A DNA stretch of 64,000 bases from Algibacter lectus (GTDB lineage Bacteria > Bacteroidota > Bacteroidia > Flavobacteriales > Flavobacteriaceae), in assembly GCF_900112395.1 (NCBI RefSeq), contig NZ_FOLN01000003.1, positions 186,001 to 250,000 on the forward strand, written 5' to 3'. Below the pieces are notes generated by a model. That model was not told where the DNA came from. It worked only from the letters and a program-made list of their open reading frames with translations, and ran no database searches. This document shows, piece after piece, positions 1 to 50,388 of the stretch (position 1 is the first letter of the stretch; each line of letters starts with the position of its first letter). Position numbers and translations under genes: made by a program.

Positions 1-598
1 CAATAAATTCTTGAGATTTTCCTTTTAAAAACAACTCGGTTTCTGTAGCTCCAGGAGCGATAGCGTTAACCGAAATACCGCGGCCAATTTCCTTAGAAAA
101 CACACGAGTCATTTGCTCAACAGCCGCTTTTGTAGATGAATATATACCGTAAGTAGGAAACATTAATTTTGCTGTACTCGAAGATATATTAATAATATTT
201 CCGTTATCAGCCAGTTTGCTGTCGGCCTCTTGTAGTGTATTAAAAACACCTTTTACGTTTACATCAAATTGATTATTAAAATCATCTTCGGTGCAATCTT
301 TTAGTAATTTAGAAGTCATAATACCTGCATTGTTTACTAAAACATCAATTTTGCCATAAGCCTCAATAGCTTTATCAAAGAGATTTACAACATCCGTTTT
401 TTGGCTAACATCCGCTTTTACTGAAATAGCTGCACCGCCATTTTTAACAATAGTGTCTACTGTTTCTTGAGCTTCTGCTTCACTATTAGAATGGTTAACA
501 ATTACTTTTGCGCCATTTTTAGCTAACTGTATAGCAATTTCTTTTCCTATGCCTTTAGACGATCCGGTTACTAGTATAACTTTGTTTTCTAGATTCAT
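1..598 (-). CDS. SDR-family NAD(P)-dependent oxidoreductase (3' end cut by window edge)
   Basis: This is a short-chain dehydrogenase/reductase, a cytosolic NAD(P)-dependent enzyme of unknown substrate. The translation begins MNLENKVILVTG. It shows the Rossmann dinucleotide motif TGSSKGIG at residues 11-18, a central NNAG, and the catalytic YSSTK (YxxxK) preceded by an INISSS serine region. About 199 residues are inside the window; families of this type run near 245, so roughly the last 45 residues lie beyond base 1. It follows the HAD gene by 8 bases on the same strand, so the two are probably one transcript under the TetR gene upstream. SDRs next to TetR repressors often act on small carbonyl compounds, but the substrate cannot be read from sequence. 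Confidence 0.9.
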   Translation of the reverse strand, partial: MNLENKVILVTGSSKGIGKEIAIQLAKNGAKVIVNHSNSEAEAQETVDTIVKNGGAAISVKADVSQKTDVVNLFDKAIEAYGKIDVLVNNAGIMTSKLLKDCTEDDFNNQFDVNVKGVFNTLQEADSKLADNGNIINISSSTAKLMFPTYGIYSSTKAAVEQMTRVFSKEIGRGISVNAIAPGATETELFLKGKSQEFI

Positions 599-15788: not shown

Positions 15789-15806
15789 GTTTTTTATTAG
15801 AAGCTA

Positions 15807-15937
15807 ATCCTGCTATTCGCTATATCTTTTTTTTAGTAAAAGCTAGTTTTTATAGCTTTGAAAAAAGTTGTTAAATTAGAGTTGGTGCATACAATAAAGT
15901 GAGTTTTTAAAAAAAAGGATGCCGCTGCTATCAGGGC
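15807..15937 (-). repeat. Dispersed intergenic repeat, copy B (degenerate)
   Basis: Read on the minus strand this segment begins with an AGCGGCATCC-like block and ends with a TAGCGAATAGCAGG block, resembling the two ends of copy A. CCTG and CAGG mark its edges. It occupies the 238-base gap between the binding protein and the kinase gene; homology is weaker than for the other copies. Confidence 0.4.
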
Positions 15938-16026
15938 TAAATCATCCGCAAAAGCAAGTGTAAAACGTAATTCAAAAAAGGAATCAGTAAAGTTTATACA
16001 TAGGCTCAAAACCGTAAAAAAAAAAC

Positions 16027-31000: not shown

Positions 31001-32722
31001 TTATAGGGTTTGGTGTTCTGCGTATTGCAAGCCATTAGGTAATTTGATAGAAGAAAACTCTAAATGTAATACCCGACGACGTTTTTGAACAATTGTTGGA
31101 GAAGAAGCATGCAATAATAATGGTTTTATTAATTGAACACCGCCTGCTGCAATTTCGCTTATAAAAGGAATTGAATTATTAGAAATAAGCTTTATTTCTT
31201 CATCATTTAAACGCTTATTGTGTGAGCCCGGAATCACTTTTAAAGCCCCATTTTTATTTGTAGTATCATCCAAATGGATACGTATTGAAAACGTATTTTT
31301 AGAAATATTTTCAGGAGGACAAACACTTATGACTCCTTTTTTATTAGTCCATGATTTAAAACCATCAACCTCTATTTTTTCCAAGACATTTATGGGTACA
31401 TCTTGATGCCAGGTTACATACCAATTGTCTTTTGGAGATTTATCAAAATAAATAGCTTTAGTTAAGAACACATCTTTATCAATCGATTTAATTAGCTTTT
31501 TAAAATTCTTGTTAAATAAAGTGTCTTTTAATTTTGGGATTTTTTTTAATACTTCACGCATGCCAAAAGCTTGCTCGTTATGTTCTTTTATATAACTATC
31601 AAGATTAGTTTTTAGTTTTCTAATGTCTCTTTTGGTATAGATATGGTTTAGAATTCCAAAACCTTTATGTTCTAATCGTTTTGCAATGGTTTGTAGGTTT
31701 TTGTCGTTAATTTCAGTTTCGTAAGCATCTACAGCATCATACAAGCGCTCTTTTATATTTCGCTTTAAGCGTTCGGGAGCAATTACTTTTACACCTTCCC
31801 CTAGACCTAAAATTTCTTTTTCAAGTTCAAAATTAAGCTGTACGTCTAAAGCGATTGTTACACCATAATTATCGCGACTTACTTCTCTTTGCGAATGATG
31901 GAATGGTTTAGTTAAAACGTAAGGTGCGTGTTTGTGATTCACGTAAAGCAATACAGGGTCTGGTTCTAAATGCGGACTTACAGAAACCCCAATAACATCT
32001 TTATAATAGGTTTCTGAGTCAAATGTTACGTCAGGTAAAAAACTATTTTCACTTTTATTTAAAGCAATAATTCTATCTAAAGCTAAATTCATTAAGCCTT
32101 CATTCTTGTTTCTTTTTCCAATAATAAACCAGCGGTTTCTGAACTCTTTTAGTAAATATGGATGAAATGTAAATGTGCTTTCTTGTCTAGCTTTAAAAGA
32201 TTGGTAAGTAATGTCTATCGCTGCTTTCTTTAAAATATACTGATAGAGTTTATCTAAATATTTTAAGCCTTTTAAGTTCTCGTTTTTCTCAAAATCTATT
32301 AGTGATTTTTCATTTGTTTTCTGTGTGTAAACATGATTTTCTAGTTTTTGAACCATACTGCTTAACTCATCAAAATGAGAGAAACCTTGAAATTGTTTTA
32401 AGAAAGAAACCGCTTCTGATAACTTAGTTAAATCTTGGTTGGAAATTGGGCTGTTAGTAATACTATAATCGTCGGCATCGTATTTATAAAACTTTCTATT
32501 ATAAACTACAATTGGTGCATTGTAGCCTAGTTTGTCACTACGCATCATTTGTAGATCTAGTTGTACTGTACGTTTGCTGACATCAATATCTTTACCTTCA
32601 TAGTCATATAAAGCATCAGAAACAGCTTCAATTAAATCATTAAGTGTCCATTGCTTAAAGTTGTTTTGAAGGCATTTATCTATTGTTTTATATCGAATTA
32701 ATGCATTTTTGTTTACAGCCAT
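31001..32722 (-). CDS. WYL-domain transcriptional regulator fused to a phytanoyl-CoA-dioxygenase-like domain
   Basis: This is a single open frame of 573 aa. Residues 1 to about 85 form a DNA-binding winged helix (TLNDLIEAVSDAL, KRTVQLDLQMMRSDKLGYNAP). A WYL-type ligand domain covers about 145-325, where RWFIIGKRN takes the place of the name-giving residues and LALDRI follows. From about 345 the chain becomes a PhyH-like Fe(II)/2-oxoglutarate dioxygenase with the iron motif H439-x-D441 in TWHQDVP, distal H538 in LLLHAS, and a 2-oxoglutarate Arg among R548-R550. All catalytic ligands are present. WYL proteins bind nucleic-acid or nucleotide-like ligands and are frequent near defence genes. I do not know this fusion as a standard architecture. 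It diverges from a 206-aa gene, with a palindrome between them. Confidence 0.88.
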   Translation of the reverse strand: MAVNKNALIRYKTIDKCLQNNFKQWTLNDLIEAVSDALYDYEGKDIDVSKRTVQLDLQMMRSDKLGYNAPIVVYNRKFYKYDADDYSITNSPISNQDLTKLSEAVSFLKQFQGFSHFDELSSMVQKLENHVYTQKTNEKSLIDFEKNENLKGLKYLDKLYQYILKKAAIDITYQSFKARQESTFTFHPYLLKEFRNRWFIIGKRNKNEGLMNLALDRIIALNKSENSFLPDVTFDSETYYKDVIGVSVSPHLEPDPVLLYVNHKHAPYVLTKPFHHSQREVSRDNYGVTIALDVQLNFELEKEILGLGEGVKVIAPERLKRNIKERLYDAVDAYETEINDKNLQTIAKRLEHKGFGILNHIYTKRDIRKLKTNLDSYIKEHNEQAFGMREVLKKIPKLKDTLFNKNFKKLIKSIDKDVFLTKAIYFDKSPKDNWYVTWHQDVPINVLEKIEVDGFKSWTNKKGVISVCPPENISKNTFSIRIHLDDTTNKNGALKVIPGSHNKRLNDEEIKLISNNSIPFISEIAAGGVQLIKPLLLHASSPTIVQKRRRVLHLEFSSIKLPNGLQYAEHQTL

Positions 32723-32765
32723 TTTCTAAAAAAATTTCTTCTAATTTATGAGAAAATATCTAGTG

Positions 32766-32780
32766 CGCAAAAAGATTGCG
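32766..32780. promoter_or_regulatory. Palindromic site 1 (CGCAA-AAAGA-TTGCG) in the divergent WYL promoter
   Basis: The 15-mer CGCAAAAAGATTGCG is a 5-bp inverted repeat with a 5-bp spacer. It lies between the divergent WYL-PhyH and 206-aa genes, and a TTTG box starts 16 bases after its end. An identical 15-mer with identical spacing lies at 34390-34404. It is a candidate operator for the WYL regulator. Confidence 0.65.
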
Positions 32781-32816
32781 TATACATATGAGTAATTTGT
32801 ATCAAATATTAAAATT

Positions 32817-34374: not shown

Positions 34375-34389
34375 AATTAATTATTACTA

Positions 34390-34404
34390 CGCAAAAAGAT
34401 TGCG
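34390..34404. promoter_or_regulatory. Palindromic site 2 (CGCAA-AAAGA-TTGCG) before the tRNA/slipin/rtcB cluster
   Basis: This 15-mer is identical to the one at 32766-32780. A TTTG box again starts exactly 16 bases after its end (34420). Same sequence and same spacing point to a shared regulator, probably the WYL protein. Confidence 0.65.
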
Positions 34405-34409
34405 CAACA

Positions 34410-34501
34410 ACCTGTAATATTTGCAGGGTAATTAAAAGGAAGTCTTTTGGAATCAGACTTTAAAAAGAAGTTGCTCCACCAGACAAGGACGCTGGTGGAG
34501 C
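34410..34501 (+). ncRNA. Hairpin-rich leader upstream of tRNA-Tyr
   Basis: Three stems stand in a row. They are CCTGTAA/TTGCAGG (34411-34427, one G-U), AAGTCT/AGACTT (34440-34460), and a perfect 10-bp GCTCCACCAG/CTGGTGGAGC with loop ACAAGGACG (34473-34501). None is followed by a T-tract, so they are not ordinary terminators. They may be a processed 5' leader or a separate small RNA. Confidence 0.5.
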
Positions 34502-34531: not shown

Positions 34532-34616
34532 GGAAGTATTGAGCAATTGGTTGGCTCGCGAGACTGTAACTCTCGTTTCTTAAATGAACATGTAGGTTCG
34601 AGTCCTACTACTTCCA
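34532..34616 (+). tRNA. Divergent tRNA-Tyr (anticodon GUA)
   Basis: All arms form in normal order. The acceptor is GGAAGTA/TACTTCC, the D-arm GAGC-AATTGGTTG-GCTC, the anticodon arm CGAGA-CTGTAAC-TCTCG, a 16-nt variable region can form TTC/GAA, and the T-arm is GTAGG-TTCGAGT-CCTAC. The discriminator is A and CCA is not encoded. The long variable region, G1-C72 and A73 fit bacterial tRNA-Tyr. Position 9 is T rather than a purine. It looks unlike the typical flavobacterial tRNA-Tyr that I remember and sits beside an RNA ligase, so it may be a specialised or decoy tRNA rather than the housekeeping copy. Confidence 0.85.
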
Positions 34617-34665
34617 CATCAAGCAAGTCTTGTTCTGTGTTTCAGTATAGCACTATTGTATAAAT

Positions 34666-34690
34666 CCTTGCGGTTTCGCATCAGGTTTTT
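34666..34690 (+). terminator. Terminator-like hairpin after tRNA-Tyr
   Basis: CCTTGCG-GTTT-CGCA-TC-AGG forms a 7-bp stem with a 2-nt bulge and is followed by TTTTTA. It may separate tRNA-Tyr from the tRNA-like pieces downstream, or be leaky. Confidence 0.55.
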
Positions 34691-34703
34691 ATATTCAACT
34701 TGA

Positions 34704-34777
34704 CTTGAAGGCTTTCGGTTATTTAGCCAAATAAATAATCTCCTCTATGTACGCAGGTTCGAATCCTGCCTTCATTA
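34704..34777 (+). ncRNA. tRNA-like element, linear reading (weak anticodon arm)
   Basis: In normal order this segment gives a 5-bp acceptor TGAAG/CTTCA, a D-arm GGCT/AGCC with CGGTT in the loop, a weak anticodon stem ATAAA/TCTAT (one mismatch, 8-nt loop) and a perfect T-arm GCAGG-TTCGAAT-CCTGC with discriminator A. It looks like a decayed or non-decoding tRNA. Its T-arm and 3' acceptor strand pair equally well with the next 5' half; see the permuted reading at 34744-34817. Confidence 0.45.
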
Positions 34778-34817
34778 ATTTGAAGTAGCTAAGTCCGGTT
34801 AAGCAATAGAAACAATC
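34744..34817 (+). ncRNA. tRNA-like element, permuted reading (T-arm first, D-arm second)
   Basis: The order along the DNA is anticodon 3' strand TCTAT (744-748), a 4-nt variable loop, T-arm GCAGG-TTCGAAT-CCTGC (753-769), 3' acceptor CTTCATT-A, a two-base spacer, 5' acceptor TTTGAAG (779-785), T8-A9, D-arm GCT-AAGTCCGGTTA-AGC (788-804), A26, and anticodon 5' strand ATAGA (806-810). ATAGA pairs with TCTAT 5 of 5, and the acceptor pairs 5 of 7. The break would fall in the anticodon loop. Tandem duplication of a broken linear tRNA is the main alternative. Confidence 0.4.
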
Positions 34818-34900
34818 GCAGGTTCGAATCCTGCCAAGATCGAAATGATCTTGTGGTCGAGCGGTCAAAGACAATGGACTCAAAATCCATTATTTCACGA
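34805..34900 (+). ncRNA. Candidate circularly permuted tRNA-Leu (anticodon CAA)
   Basis: The T-arm GCAGG-TTCGAAT-CCTGC (818-834) and 3' acceptor CAAGATC (835-841) come first. A GAAAT spacer follows, then the 5' acceptor GATCTTG (847-853, 7 of 7 pairs), T8-G9, D-arm GTC-GAGCGGTCAAA-GAC (856-872), A26 and anticodon arm ATGGA-CTCAAAA-TCCAT (874-890). Every canonical spacing is kept. T8-A14, G18-G19 and G15-C48 partners are present. A TTTC (893-896) / GAAA (809-812) match could close a variable arm across the joined ends. No T-arm follows downstream, so a linear tRNA cannot be built. The base after the acceptor is G, whereas bacterial tRNA-Leu normally has A73. An ordinary tRNA-Leu(CAA) exists at 50.3 kb. 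Confidence 0.55.
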
Positions 34901-35295
34901 AGAAGGTCACTTATAAAAATCGACCACCAAGTGTGTCTCACTTAAAAAAGGCAAAAAACAAAGTAAAGGTAAACTCGCTAAAACAACTTGTTGTTGCAGC
35001 AGTCCGGAAAATACCTTGAAATACAAATGTATTTTTAGATGCCTTAGGTATTCTTTTAAAGAATCATTAGTTAAAATACAGTTTGAAAATTATTCAAATT
35101 GCAATTAATTAATCTTCAATAAAACGCTACCTAAATCGCTTTAAATCAATTGTCTTTCCGTATTTAAAAAGATGGTTTGCTTTTGCTTTGTTTTAATAAA
35201 GAATAGTCATTTCAGCTTGACTGAAATTCTATTATAAATAATTAATAGTTCTGAATAAAAAAACAAAAATAACAGAACATTAAAAATCAAATAAG
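34901..35295 (+). ncRNA. Structured non-coding region between the permuted tRNA and slipin
   Basis: There is no coding region here. TCGACCA-C-CAAG at 34920-34931 can pair with CTTGTGGTCGA at 34850-34860 and would compete with the tRNA acceptor and D-arm. Further stems are AAGTG/CACTT (34929-34943), AATACCT/AGGTATT enclosing AAATACA/TGTATTT (35010-35052), and AATAG..ATTTCAG-CTTGA-CTGAAAT..CTATT (35202-35233). The last lies 62 bases before the slipin start and may be a leader element. Confidence 0.5.
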
Positions 35296-36396
35296 ATGAA
35301 AAGAGTAAGAATTCATGCAGGAAAAGTAGGGTTAGTATTTAAAAATGGTAATTACAAATGTGTTATTACCCAAGGATCACATTGGTTAAAGTTTAATGAA
35401 CATGTATTAGTTTATAGCTTAGACCTAGCCTTTAATACACCAACAGCATTGGAGGTTTTACTTAAAGATCAAACGTTGGCAGATATGTTGCACGTTATTA
35501 ATGTAGAAGACAATCAAATGGTATTAGTGTATAGCAATAATAACTTTAAAAACGTATTAACAGCAGGACGACACACTTTTTGGAGAGACCTAGTAAGCTA
35601 TAGATTTATCACCGTAGATTTAAGCGATATTACTATTCCAGAAACAATAAATAAAGCTTTGTATACCAACAATGCTTTGCGTCTACATATTCGCACGTTT
35701 GAAGTTGCAGCACATGAAAAAGCAGTTCTAATTATTGATGATACGTTTGATAAAATTTTAGATCATGGTACATACCACTACTGGAGAAATAATCAAACTA
35801 TTAAAATTGCGAAAGCAGATTTACGTCAATTACAATTAGAAGTTGGAGGTCAAGAATTGTTAACCAAAGACAAAGCCACTGTGCGCATTAATTTTTACGC
35901 ACAGTACAAAGTTACAGATATCGAAACTGCTTTATTGCGCAACAAAGATTACGAAAAACAATTGTACACCAACTTGCAATTAGCATTAAGGTCTTTTATT
36001 GGAGCTTACACTTTAGACGAGTTGTTAGATCAAAAAGACAACATTGCAAAAGCAGTAGTAGAAGATGTGCAAACACAAGCACAAAAGTTAGGTGTAACCG
36101 TTTTACATGCAGGCTTAAGAGATGTGATTTTGCCAGGAGACATGAAAGAAATCATGAACCAAGTATTAATCGCTCAGAAAAAAGCGCAAGCCAATGTAGT
36201 AACAAGACGGGAAGAAACCGCATCTACACGCAGCTTGTTGAACACTGCAAAATTAATGGAAGACAACAGCATGTTGTTTAAATTAAAAGAGATGGAATAT
36301 GTAGAGAAAATTGCTGATAAAATTGGCGAAATTACAGTGGCTGGAAACGGTAACGTAATCGAACAATTAAAAGATATTTTCTCTGTAAATAAGTAA
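35296..36396 (+). CDS. Slipin-like SPFH (band 7) protein associated with RtcB
   Basis: The 366-aa protein carries an SPFH/band-7 domain at about residues 185-310 (VRINFYAQYKVTDIETALL, LRSFIGAYTLDELLDQKD, VEDVQTQAQKLGVTVLHAGLRDVILPGDM). No transmembrane helix is visible, unlike ordinary slipins and stomatins. The N-terminal half contains three copies of a roughly 40-residue beta-rich module starting near residues 8, 73 and 141 (GLVFKNGNYKCVITQGSHW, VLVYSNNNFKNVLTAGRHTF, VLIIDDTFDKILDHGTYHYW). It probably forms a soluble oligomeric ring or cage. It precedes rtcB by 163 bases with copy D of the repeat between them, a pairing I recall from other Bacteroidota. The molecular role is unknown; scaffolding of RNA repair is an inference. 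Confidence 0.85.
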   Translation: MKRVRIHAGKVGLVFKNGNYKCVITQGSHWLKFNEHVLVYSLDLAFNTPTALEVLLKDQTLADMLHVINVEDNQMVLVYSNNNFKNVLTAGRHTFWRDLVSYRFITVDLSDITIPETINKALYTNNALRLHIRTFEVAAHEKAVLIIDDTFDKILDHGTYHYWRNNQTIKIAKADLRQLQLEVGGQELLTKDKATVRINFYAQYKVTDIETALLRNKDYEKQLYTNLQLALRSFIGAYTLDELLDQKDNIAKAVVEDVQTQAQKLGVTVLHAGLRDVILPGDMKEIMNQVLIAQKKAQANVVTRREETASTRSLLNTAKLMEDNSMLFKLKEMEYVEKIADKIGEITVAGNGNVIEQLKDIFSVNK

Positions 36397-36403
36397 AATT
36401 ATG

Positions 36404-36494
36404 GCGTAACCCAAACCAGAAAAAAGTTTGGGTCGCGCTTTCCGCTAAATCTTTTGCAGAAAAAGCAAAAGGATACCGCATCAATCGCTTACGC
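36404..36494 (-). repeat. Dispersed intergenic repeat, copy D (between slipin and rtcB)
   Basis: The segment is bounded by GCGTAA and TTACGC. Read on the minus strand it runs GCGATTGATGCGGTATCC, then TTAGCGGAAAGCGCGACCC. It sits inside a likely operon, so read-through or processing must occur here. Confidence 0.7.
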
Positions 36495-36538
36495 GGGTGT
36501 ACTTGCTAAGTATTTATTTAATTCTAAACTAGTTTTAG

Positions 36539-37983
<1,445 letters not shown>

Positions 37984-50298: not shown

Positions 50299-50308
50299 CC
50301 TTAAAAAG

Positions 50309-50388
50309 TACTCAAGGCGGGAATCGAACCCGCACTCCGAAGAATCGGATTTTGAATCCGACGTGTCTACCAATTCCACCACTTGAGC
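50309..50388 (-). tRNA. tRNA-Leu (anticodon CAA), ordinary linear gene
   Basis: On the minus strand the acceptor GCTCAAG/CTTGAGT (one G-U), D-arm with AATTGGTAGAC, anticodon arm TCGGA-TTCAAAA-TCCGA, variable arm TTCTTCGGAGT and T-arm CGGG-TTCGATT-CCCG all form. The discriminator is A. It decodes UUG, the same codon as the permuted candidate at 34.8 kb. Confidence 0.93.

Follow-up and report, generated by a model that had tools for sequence, protein, structure and literature searches.

The closest described precedent for the RNA discussed here is the bacterial Y RNA YrlA, a circularly permuted tRNA mimic whose crystal structure (6CU1) is permuted relative to tRNA (PMC11472068), which in some operons is encoded together with rtcB, in the order rsr-yrlBA-rtcBA (PMC7790460, PMC8394870), and which is described as acting as a separate protein-binding RNA (PMC8394870) and has been proposed to inhibit an anticodon nuclease competitively (PMC7790460). 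With YrlA, a permuted tRNA-like RNA beside rtcB is already known in bacteria, as these accounts describe it (PMC7790460, PMC8394870, PMC11472068). Three further systems invite comparison. Among described permuted tRNA genes the spacer measures 1-74 nt, and in several the point of opening is the anticodon loop (PMC3978253); in Anabaena, a trn array is reported to be induced by translational stress, with the repressor TrcR controlling the tRNA array, rtcB and a slipin-family gene (PMC10272220); and GOLLD and ROOL are described as large pseudoknotted RNAs, often beside tRNA islands and encoded by phages or prophages (PMC12286853, PMC9569102, PMC6582537).

Here I discuss a locus of Algibacter lectus, contained in a window (the whole stretch of DNA analysed) of 64,000 nucleotides, in which an earlier note had read positions 34805-34900 as a candidate circularly permuted tRNA-Leu(CAA) whose two ends might be joined by the RtcB ligase encoded downstream. 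That element, called module B below, is by sequence comparison the middle part of a larger conserved non-coding RNA of ~620 nt, and the structure of this RNA, its conservation and its place just before a slipin gene are well supported by the folds and alignments that follow.

Anatomy of the RNA

The RNA sits between a tRNA-Tyr gene and a slipin/RtcB gene pair, and its predicted parts are the following.

34532-34617, + strand: tRNA-Tyr(GTA), ordinary order (ARAGORN)
34618-35235, + strand: large structured RNA, with 5' domain, modules A and B, pseudoknots, 3' domain and terminal hairpin (consensus fold, ends predicted)
34619-34708, + strand: 5' domain, closed by TCAAGCAAGT (34619-34628) pairing with ACTTGACTTGA (34698-34708) (fold)
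34744-34810, + strand: module A, permuted and opened in the anticodon loop, the YrlA topology (fold, structure read by hand)
34818-34890, + strand: module B, permuted and opened in the variable loop (structural scan, structure read by hand, ARAGORN)
34899-34925, + strand: pseudoknot 1, H-type (hand-written structure, pseudoknot count)
34929-34952, + strand: pseudoknot 2, H-type (hand-written structure, pseudoknot count)
34955-35194, + strand: 3' domain, closed by a mostly invariant 13-bp helix, 34955-34967/35182-35194 (fold)
35202-35233, + strand: terminal hairpin AATAG..CTATT with covarying inner stem (fold)
35296-36396, + strand: slipin-type SPFH/Band 7 protein (Pfam Band_7, E 8e-31)
36560-37954, + strand: RtcB-family RNA ligase (Pfam RtcB, E 1e-36)

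Between 34744 and 34890 lie two tandem permuted tRNA-like modules rather than one, and some loci carry three. Module A begins with the 3' strand of its anticodon stem (TCTAT, 34744-34748) and a variable loop (GTAC), continues through a T-arm (34753-34769), a capped acceptor (34770-34785) and a D-arm (34788-34804), and ends with the 5' anticodon-stem strand (ATAGA, 34806-34810), there being no anticodon loop. The 5-bp stem that closes it is present in 31 of 62 anticodon-less modules, compared with 406 of 3,750 swapped pairings, and a closing stem of this type occurs in 3 of the 46 relatives' modules that have an anticodon arm.

Module B has the tail-to-head order described for it, its T-arm (34818-34834) and 3' acceptor strand (CAAGATC, 34835-34841) preceding, across a spacer of 5 nt (GAAAT), the 5' acceptor strand (GATCTTG, 34847-34853, seven of seven pairs), the D-arm (34856-34872) and the anticodon arm (34874-34890, loop CTCAAAA, anticodon CAA); no T-arm follows it, the base after the acceptor is G, RtcB starts downstream at 36560 and an ordinary tRNA-Leu(CAA) stands elsewhere in the window (50308-50388), all as the earlier note had it. 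The TTTC/GAAA match that it suggested could close the variable arm exists in the window, but its GAAA side is kept in one of seven aligned sequences. In several close relatives two anticodon-type arms stand in succession, and the window keeps only the second. Within the 64-kb window, on both strands, a T-arm with closed acceptor hairpin and D-arm scoring at least 8 was found at 34753 and 34818 only; ARAGORN called four ordinary tRNAs and none at module B as encoded, and when the halves of module B are set in tRNA order in silico the same program calls tRNA-Leu(caa).

On the 5' side of the modules, the 5' domain contains an inner hairpin (34666-34685), and its closing stem hardly varies, so that covariation is no test of that stem. 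On the 3' side, pseudoknot 1 would combine stem 1 (34899-34902/34910-34913, three of four pairs formed in the window) with stem 2 (34905-34908/34922-34925), and pseudoknot 2 would combine stem 1 (34929-34933/34939-34943) with stem 2 (34935-34938/34949-34952), the columns of the last stem being poorly aligned in the seven-sequence alignment described below. After the last module, 56 of 69 loci show one or more H-type pseudoknots with an A-rich loop, as do 46 of 690 mononucleotide shuffles; two or more are seen there in 14 of 69 loci, against 2 of 690 of the same kind of shuffle. The whole region (34618-35240) folds at -158.8 kcal/mol, compared with -114.2 (sd 4.8) for 20 shuffles (z = -9.3).

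Conservation, chance controls and covariation

A search with a slipin alignment supplied the comparison loci, the best 80 loci of named genomes out of at least 181 confirmed matches being taken, and these span Flavobacteriaceae, Cytophagales, Chitinophagaceae, Sphingobacteriales and Bacteroidales, together with one bin labelled Chlorobiota and one labelled Rickettsiales. In 69 of 79 loci (L079, with 62 nt upstream, being left out) a permuted module stands in the same orientation as slipin and at most 1,200 nt before it, and 36 loci have at least two; the corresponding counts were 0 of 1,580 for dinucleotide shuffles, 0 of 79 for the antisense strand and 0 of 78 downstream of slipin. When acceptor spacers of up to 25 nt are allowed, a module is found in 75 of the 80 loci, and L079, L082, L086, L097 and L117 have none. 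An additional set, whose species may overlap those of the 80 loci, gave a module in 20 of 21 loci and 19 of 20 genomes (G245 contributing two loci, own genome included), with none upstream of slipin in G061.

The arrangement can also be judged from T-arms alone. T-arms that lie before slipin outside called tRNAs are directly followed by a perfect hairpin scoring at least 5 in 113 of 175 cases, whereas for the T-arms inside the called tRNAs of these loci the count is 23 of 314 (Fisher p 5e-42), in a test that makes no demand for a D-arm, and the hairpin loop measures 3-7 nt in 101 of the 113. With an acceptor of at least 6 bp, a spacer of at most 25 nt and a D-arm required, the counts are 93 of 175 free T-arms against 12 of 314 controls. 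Among the 108 modules counted in the 69 module-bearing loci, two (L054 6924 and L091 7247) share their T-arm with a called tRNA, and both loci contain other modules.

Across 395 Bacteroidota genomes, the slipin alignment matches 57 at E <= 1e-20 and 20 near full length (E < 1e-120), all 20 belonging to the window's own family, order or class and none to genomes that share only the phylum. At least 16 of these 20 long-slipin genomes have a module match within 1 kb upstream of slipin, among the matches listed; also among the matches listed, those of at least 62 bits fall in 12 genomes and lie just before slipin in 11 of them, G344 being the exception. As a detector of carriers, the module covariance model by itself was discarded as unspecific, since tandem ordinary tRNAs fit it and it matches 395 of 395 genomes; seven inspected matches away from slipin are ordinary tRNA stretches. 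The window's RtcB is matched in 13 of 60 genomes, strongly (E < 1e-190) in 9, own genome included. The sister species G001 retains the leader DNA, and G048, a member of another family, retains part of it; read by eye, module B has the acceptor strands CAAAATC/GGTTTTG and anticodon TAG in the former, and TACTC/GAGTA and anticodon TAA in the latter, where a further module has the acceptor TTTGACT/AGTCAAA. No match to the leader or to slipin was found in phage records, nor to slipin in viral contigs, and no title or abstract opening among those listed in literature searches describes permuted tRNA-like modules before slipin, an earlier description being still conceivable.

Do the paired strands change together? 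The earlier note had proposed covariation of the acceptor strands as a check, and six of the seven module B acceptor pairs have changed on both sides in a seven-sequence alignment of the whole leader, for which the sequences were picked by slipin similarity and structure was ignored. A fold program applied to this alignment recovers the T-arm and acceptor hairpin of each module, an anticodon-type arm after module B and the 5-bp stem closing module A, and of the two D-arms it finds that of module A but not that of module B; 34 of the 169 pairs in the consensus fold are changed on both sides in at least one of the seven sequences. The hand-written structure with pseudoknots scores 0.283 on the same sequences, against 0.156 for shuffles and at most 0.097 when slid, and has both-side changes in 19 of 66 pairs against 9.4 in shuffles, while its further pair types show no excess (37 against 34.2). 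Its pseudoknot stems pair in 59-97% of cells, and an assumed hairpin (35166-35184) and part of pseudoknot 2 fit poorly, the fold favouring a longer helix there. An alignment of 39 of the 46 anticodon-arm modules (six with long acceptor loops and L043 7355 excluded by hand) gives a covariation score of 0.744, against 0.216 for shuffles and at most 0.144 when slid, and on a weaker measure 18 both-side-changed pairs against 15.9, a value that 30 of 500 shuffles reach; the 108 modules and this subset of 39 were chosen by pairing, so that their pair counts are biased upward. As far as these alignments tell, acceptor stems and T-arms covary, and they do so also in the alignment chosen without regard to structure.

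Neighbouring genes and candidate control

Upstream of the modules, many relatives carry arrays of up to 18 tRNA genes. Among the 66 loci long enough for the count, 50 have ordinary tRNAs within 7 kb upstream, 28 have at least five and 18 at least ten. RtcB lies within the fetched flanks of 44 of the 80 slipin loci; counted by genome, it is present in 18 of 20 long-slipin genomes, compared with 155 of 375 other Bacteroidota genomes (p 2e-5), and was not found in the long-slipin genomes G245 and G312. In G048 (L038:7943-9837) slipin is followed, in the place of RtcB, by a T4-type RNA ligase (RNA_lig_T4_1) and a polynucleotide kinase-phosphatase, and a distant RtcB is encoded on another contig. 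Module loci, like some that encode YrlA, stand among RNA-repair genes.

Several other RNAs of these loci deserve a record of their own. Flavo-1 RNAs (Rfam RF01705, above threshold) occur on the minus strand at 15802-15942 and at 36427-36502, the latter between slipin and rtcB. Near RtcB in two relatives (L019:8158-8272 and L022:~19-128, minus strand) there is a tRNA body that has, in place of its anticodon loop, a long insert bearing a TTACTTT..AAAGTTCCT motif; L019 has similar motifs again downstream of this odd tRNA, with another T-arm followed by AGCTC-GAAA-GAGCT, and a 613-aa protein (L019:8490-10328) with a relative in L073 is encoded between the odd tRNA and rtcB, without a match in Pfam, PADLOC or NCBIfam.

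Candidate control elements lie before the tRNA-Tyr gene and farther upstream.

31001-32722, - strand: WYL-domain protein fused to a phytanoyl-CoA dioxygenase-like domain, candidate regulator (Pfam WYL, WCX, PhyH)
32764-32782, no strand assigned: palindrome-like site TGCGCA-N7-TGCGTA before the WYL gene (putative, read from the letters)
34388-34406, no strand assigned: candidate operator TACGCA-N7-TGCGCA, before tRNA-Tyr (site comparison)
34415-34423, + strand: TAATATTTG, resembling the Bacteroidota promoter box, just after the operator (putative)
34473-34501, + strand: 10-bp hairpin GCTCCACCAG/CTGGTGGAGC (read from the letters)

Of 75 loci, 28 have the exact pattern TACGCA-N7-TGCG[C/T]A no farther than 1,500 nt before slipin, at 29 sites in all, and the other 47 lack it there; five altered patterns, with other spacers or arms, were found upstream of slipin in none of the 75. 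Further operator-like sites occur in slipin loci, and these include sites before rtcB or near the WYL gene. The promoter box of Bacteroidota has the consensus TAnnTTTG. Hairpins similar to the one at 34473-34501 precede rtcB in L020 and the odd tRNA in L019. The WYL protein may be the natural candidate to bind the TACGCA-N7-TGCGCA site, and the related site before its own gene makes autoregulation possible. I know of no other protein in which a WYL domain is fused to a phytanoyl-CoA dioxygenase-like domain; PADLOC returned a defence-associated family and weak matches for it, and a WYL relative lies within the fetched flanks of 23 of the 80 slipin loci. That TrcR, a regulator of another family, joins a tRNA array, rtcB and a slipin-family gene gives an independent hint that these genes serve one stress response.

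Proposed role, rival readings and known systems

How might such an RNA work? The explanation that I prefer, and hold with some reserve to be the probable one, is that it acts in trans as a tRNA mimic in a response to tRNA damage, being made together with slipin, and is not a decoding tRNA. A WYL-controlled promoter would transcribe the RNA together with slipin, and the response would supply spare tRNAs (the arrays) and the RtcB ligase alongside it. The RNA would stay unconverted to decoding tRNA; its capped acceptor, with an anticodon side that is open in module A and displayed in module B, might be taken by tRNA-binding proteins for a tRNA cut in the anticodon, the kind of substrate that RtcB repairs, and the whole could either divert tRNA-cutting nucleases as a decoy or gather tRNA-handling enzymes as a scaffold. 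Against a mimic, the versions with long spacers look more like processable permuted tRNAs than like capped mimics.

Rather less probable, and yet the most serious rival, is that the RNA forms the 5' end of the slipin (and rtcB) message and works there in cis, as a sensor of tRNA damage that switches expression when its tRNA-like parts are cut or bound. Because the RNA lies on the slipin strand and no terminator-like site was found on the + strand between 34300 and 36600, a cis role fits as well; its place on that strand is moreover constant, the module matches of at least 62 bits ending ~267-529 nt before slipin in the 11 genomes listed, and conservation continues toward the slipin start. A simple sensor would need far less RNA than this, however, and the terminal hairpin and long closing helices that the RNA has of its own, as well as the description of YrlA, closest to it in form, as a separate protein-binding RNA (PMC8394870), speak against this reading.

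It is less likely still, indeed doubtful, that the modules are true permuted tRNA genes whose ends RtcB joins and whose acceptor loops RNase P and 3' enzymes cut to release a working tRNA, a wider form of the tRNA-Leu first proposed for module B. All 47 anticodon-bearing modules (the 46 from relatives and the window's own) are called as tRNA by ARAGORN once reordered, and none as encoded, which bears out the circularly permuted order, although these modules had been pre-chosen for their arms, so that the count shows completeness of form and not function. A ligase is often nearby, CCA stands in the acceptor loop of 5 of the 46 modules, and spacers of 11-22 nt separate the acceptor strands at 15 of 175 free T-arms, compared with 4 of 314 controls. 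Set against this, the anticodon is not conserved (16 kinds among 46 modules, the commonest being TTT with 12), position 73 is mixed (9 A, 7 C and 2 T among the 18 of 46 modules whose acceptor reaches 7 bp or more), module A has no anticodon loop, the TTTC/GAAA pairing proposed for the junction is not conserved, pseudoknots follow the modules in 56 of 69 loci, and an ordinary tRNA-Leu(CAA) is present in the window. The acceptor loops are also short (at most 5 nt in 74 of 108, at most 7 nt in 98), and among the 39 of four bases 12 are GNRA, ten of these being GAAA, the commonest sequence; short loops alone would leave maturation possible, because permuted tRNA genes exist whose spacers measure 1-74 nt, and several algal ones open, like module A, in the anticodon loop (PMC3978253). 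The earlier note's suggestion of a tRNA-Leu made by end-joining is not supported by these results.

A narrower version deserves mention, as a long shot: some modules, chiefly those with spacers of 11-22 nt, might be circularised by the ligase encoded nearby and cut at the acceptor, yielding new tRNAs or stable circles during translation stress. To my knowledge no pathway of circularised permuted tRNAs is known in bacteria, and if true it would be the first. Finally, functionless debris of tandem tRNA arrays, that is, adjacent halves whose acceptors pair by chance, is very improbable and close to refuted, for although arrays lie upstream in many loci and ordinary array junctions can match the permuted model, the arms carry compensatory changes, the same order and place recur in many genera, and both the hairpin-followed T-arms (113 of 175 against 23 of 314) and the shuffles (0 of 1,580) speak against it.

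Returning to the mimic acting in trans, the best reading of the comparisons made here is that the RNA would be a tRNA mimic of an RNA-repair regulon and a variant of the Y-RNA kind. YrlA resembles module A in having a permuted T-arm, a capped acceptor-like hairpin and a D-arm, in the same permuted order, and resembles the module-bearing loci in being found with rtcB in RNA repair operons. The Rfam model of YrlA (RF02553) matches module A at 27.9 bits (E 0.0011), far short of the gathering threshold of 69; in the fourteen relatives' loci scanned with Rfam, sub-threshold matches occurred in all ten short loci and in three of four further ones (not L056). Over all relatives scanned the scores were 24.4-45.9 bits, all below 69. 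No match to Ro60/Rsr (TROVE) was found in the window's own genome, and among 22 carrier genomes one has a Ro60-like TROVE match and the other 21 have none; the one match (G115:C1:839825-840589) lies ~3.3 kb from an RtcB gene. In form, then, the RNA is like YrlA, but its sub-threshold score and the absence of Ro60 are the reasons for not accepting it as a YrlA member. YrlA binds Ro60 by a long basal stem; module A has a 5-bp closing stem, and none longer was seen in the fold. Tandem modules, a full anticodon arm in module B, pseudoknots, the length of ~620 nt and the slipin neighbour set the RNA apart from YrlA.

The permuted tRNA genes of algae and archaea share with these modules the 3' half placed first, facing acceptor strands and a short spacer, and module B gives a cloverleaf after reordering as they do; those of red and green algae and archaea mature via circular intermediates to decoding tRNAs, whereas the present modules are embedded in a larger RNA and either lack an anticodon or show an unconserved one. 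The Anabaena regulon is alike in that a single regulator governs a tRNA array, rtcB and a slipin-family gene, and differs in that TrcR is an RHH repressor and that the word 'permuted' is absent from the available text of its description (PMC10272220). GOLLD and ROOL differ in the order of their elements and in their described phage or prophage setting, whereas the leader and slipin had no match in phage records. No match to GOLLD (RF02032) was found in the window between 34380 and 35300 at E up to 10; in some relatives GOLLD matches that are strong, though sub-threshold, lie upstream of the modules (L048:708-1210, 129.9 bits; L056:6714-7215, 136.4; L046:6504-6981, 117.4), the match is partial in L042, and L050 and L062 have none. 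These matches would place a GOLLD-like RNA beside such genes in some chromosomes.

The conserved and separately deletable parts of the RNA make the repair targets of RtcB, and its tRNA-like companions, an approachable question. Beside these known systems, the RNA would link permutation to the spare tRNAs, WYL regulator, slipin and RNA ligases that recur together, and would carry the mimicry of tRNA by permuted molecules beyond the Y-RNA module, to a large RNA of several modules that stands before slipin in many genera.
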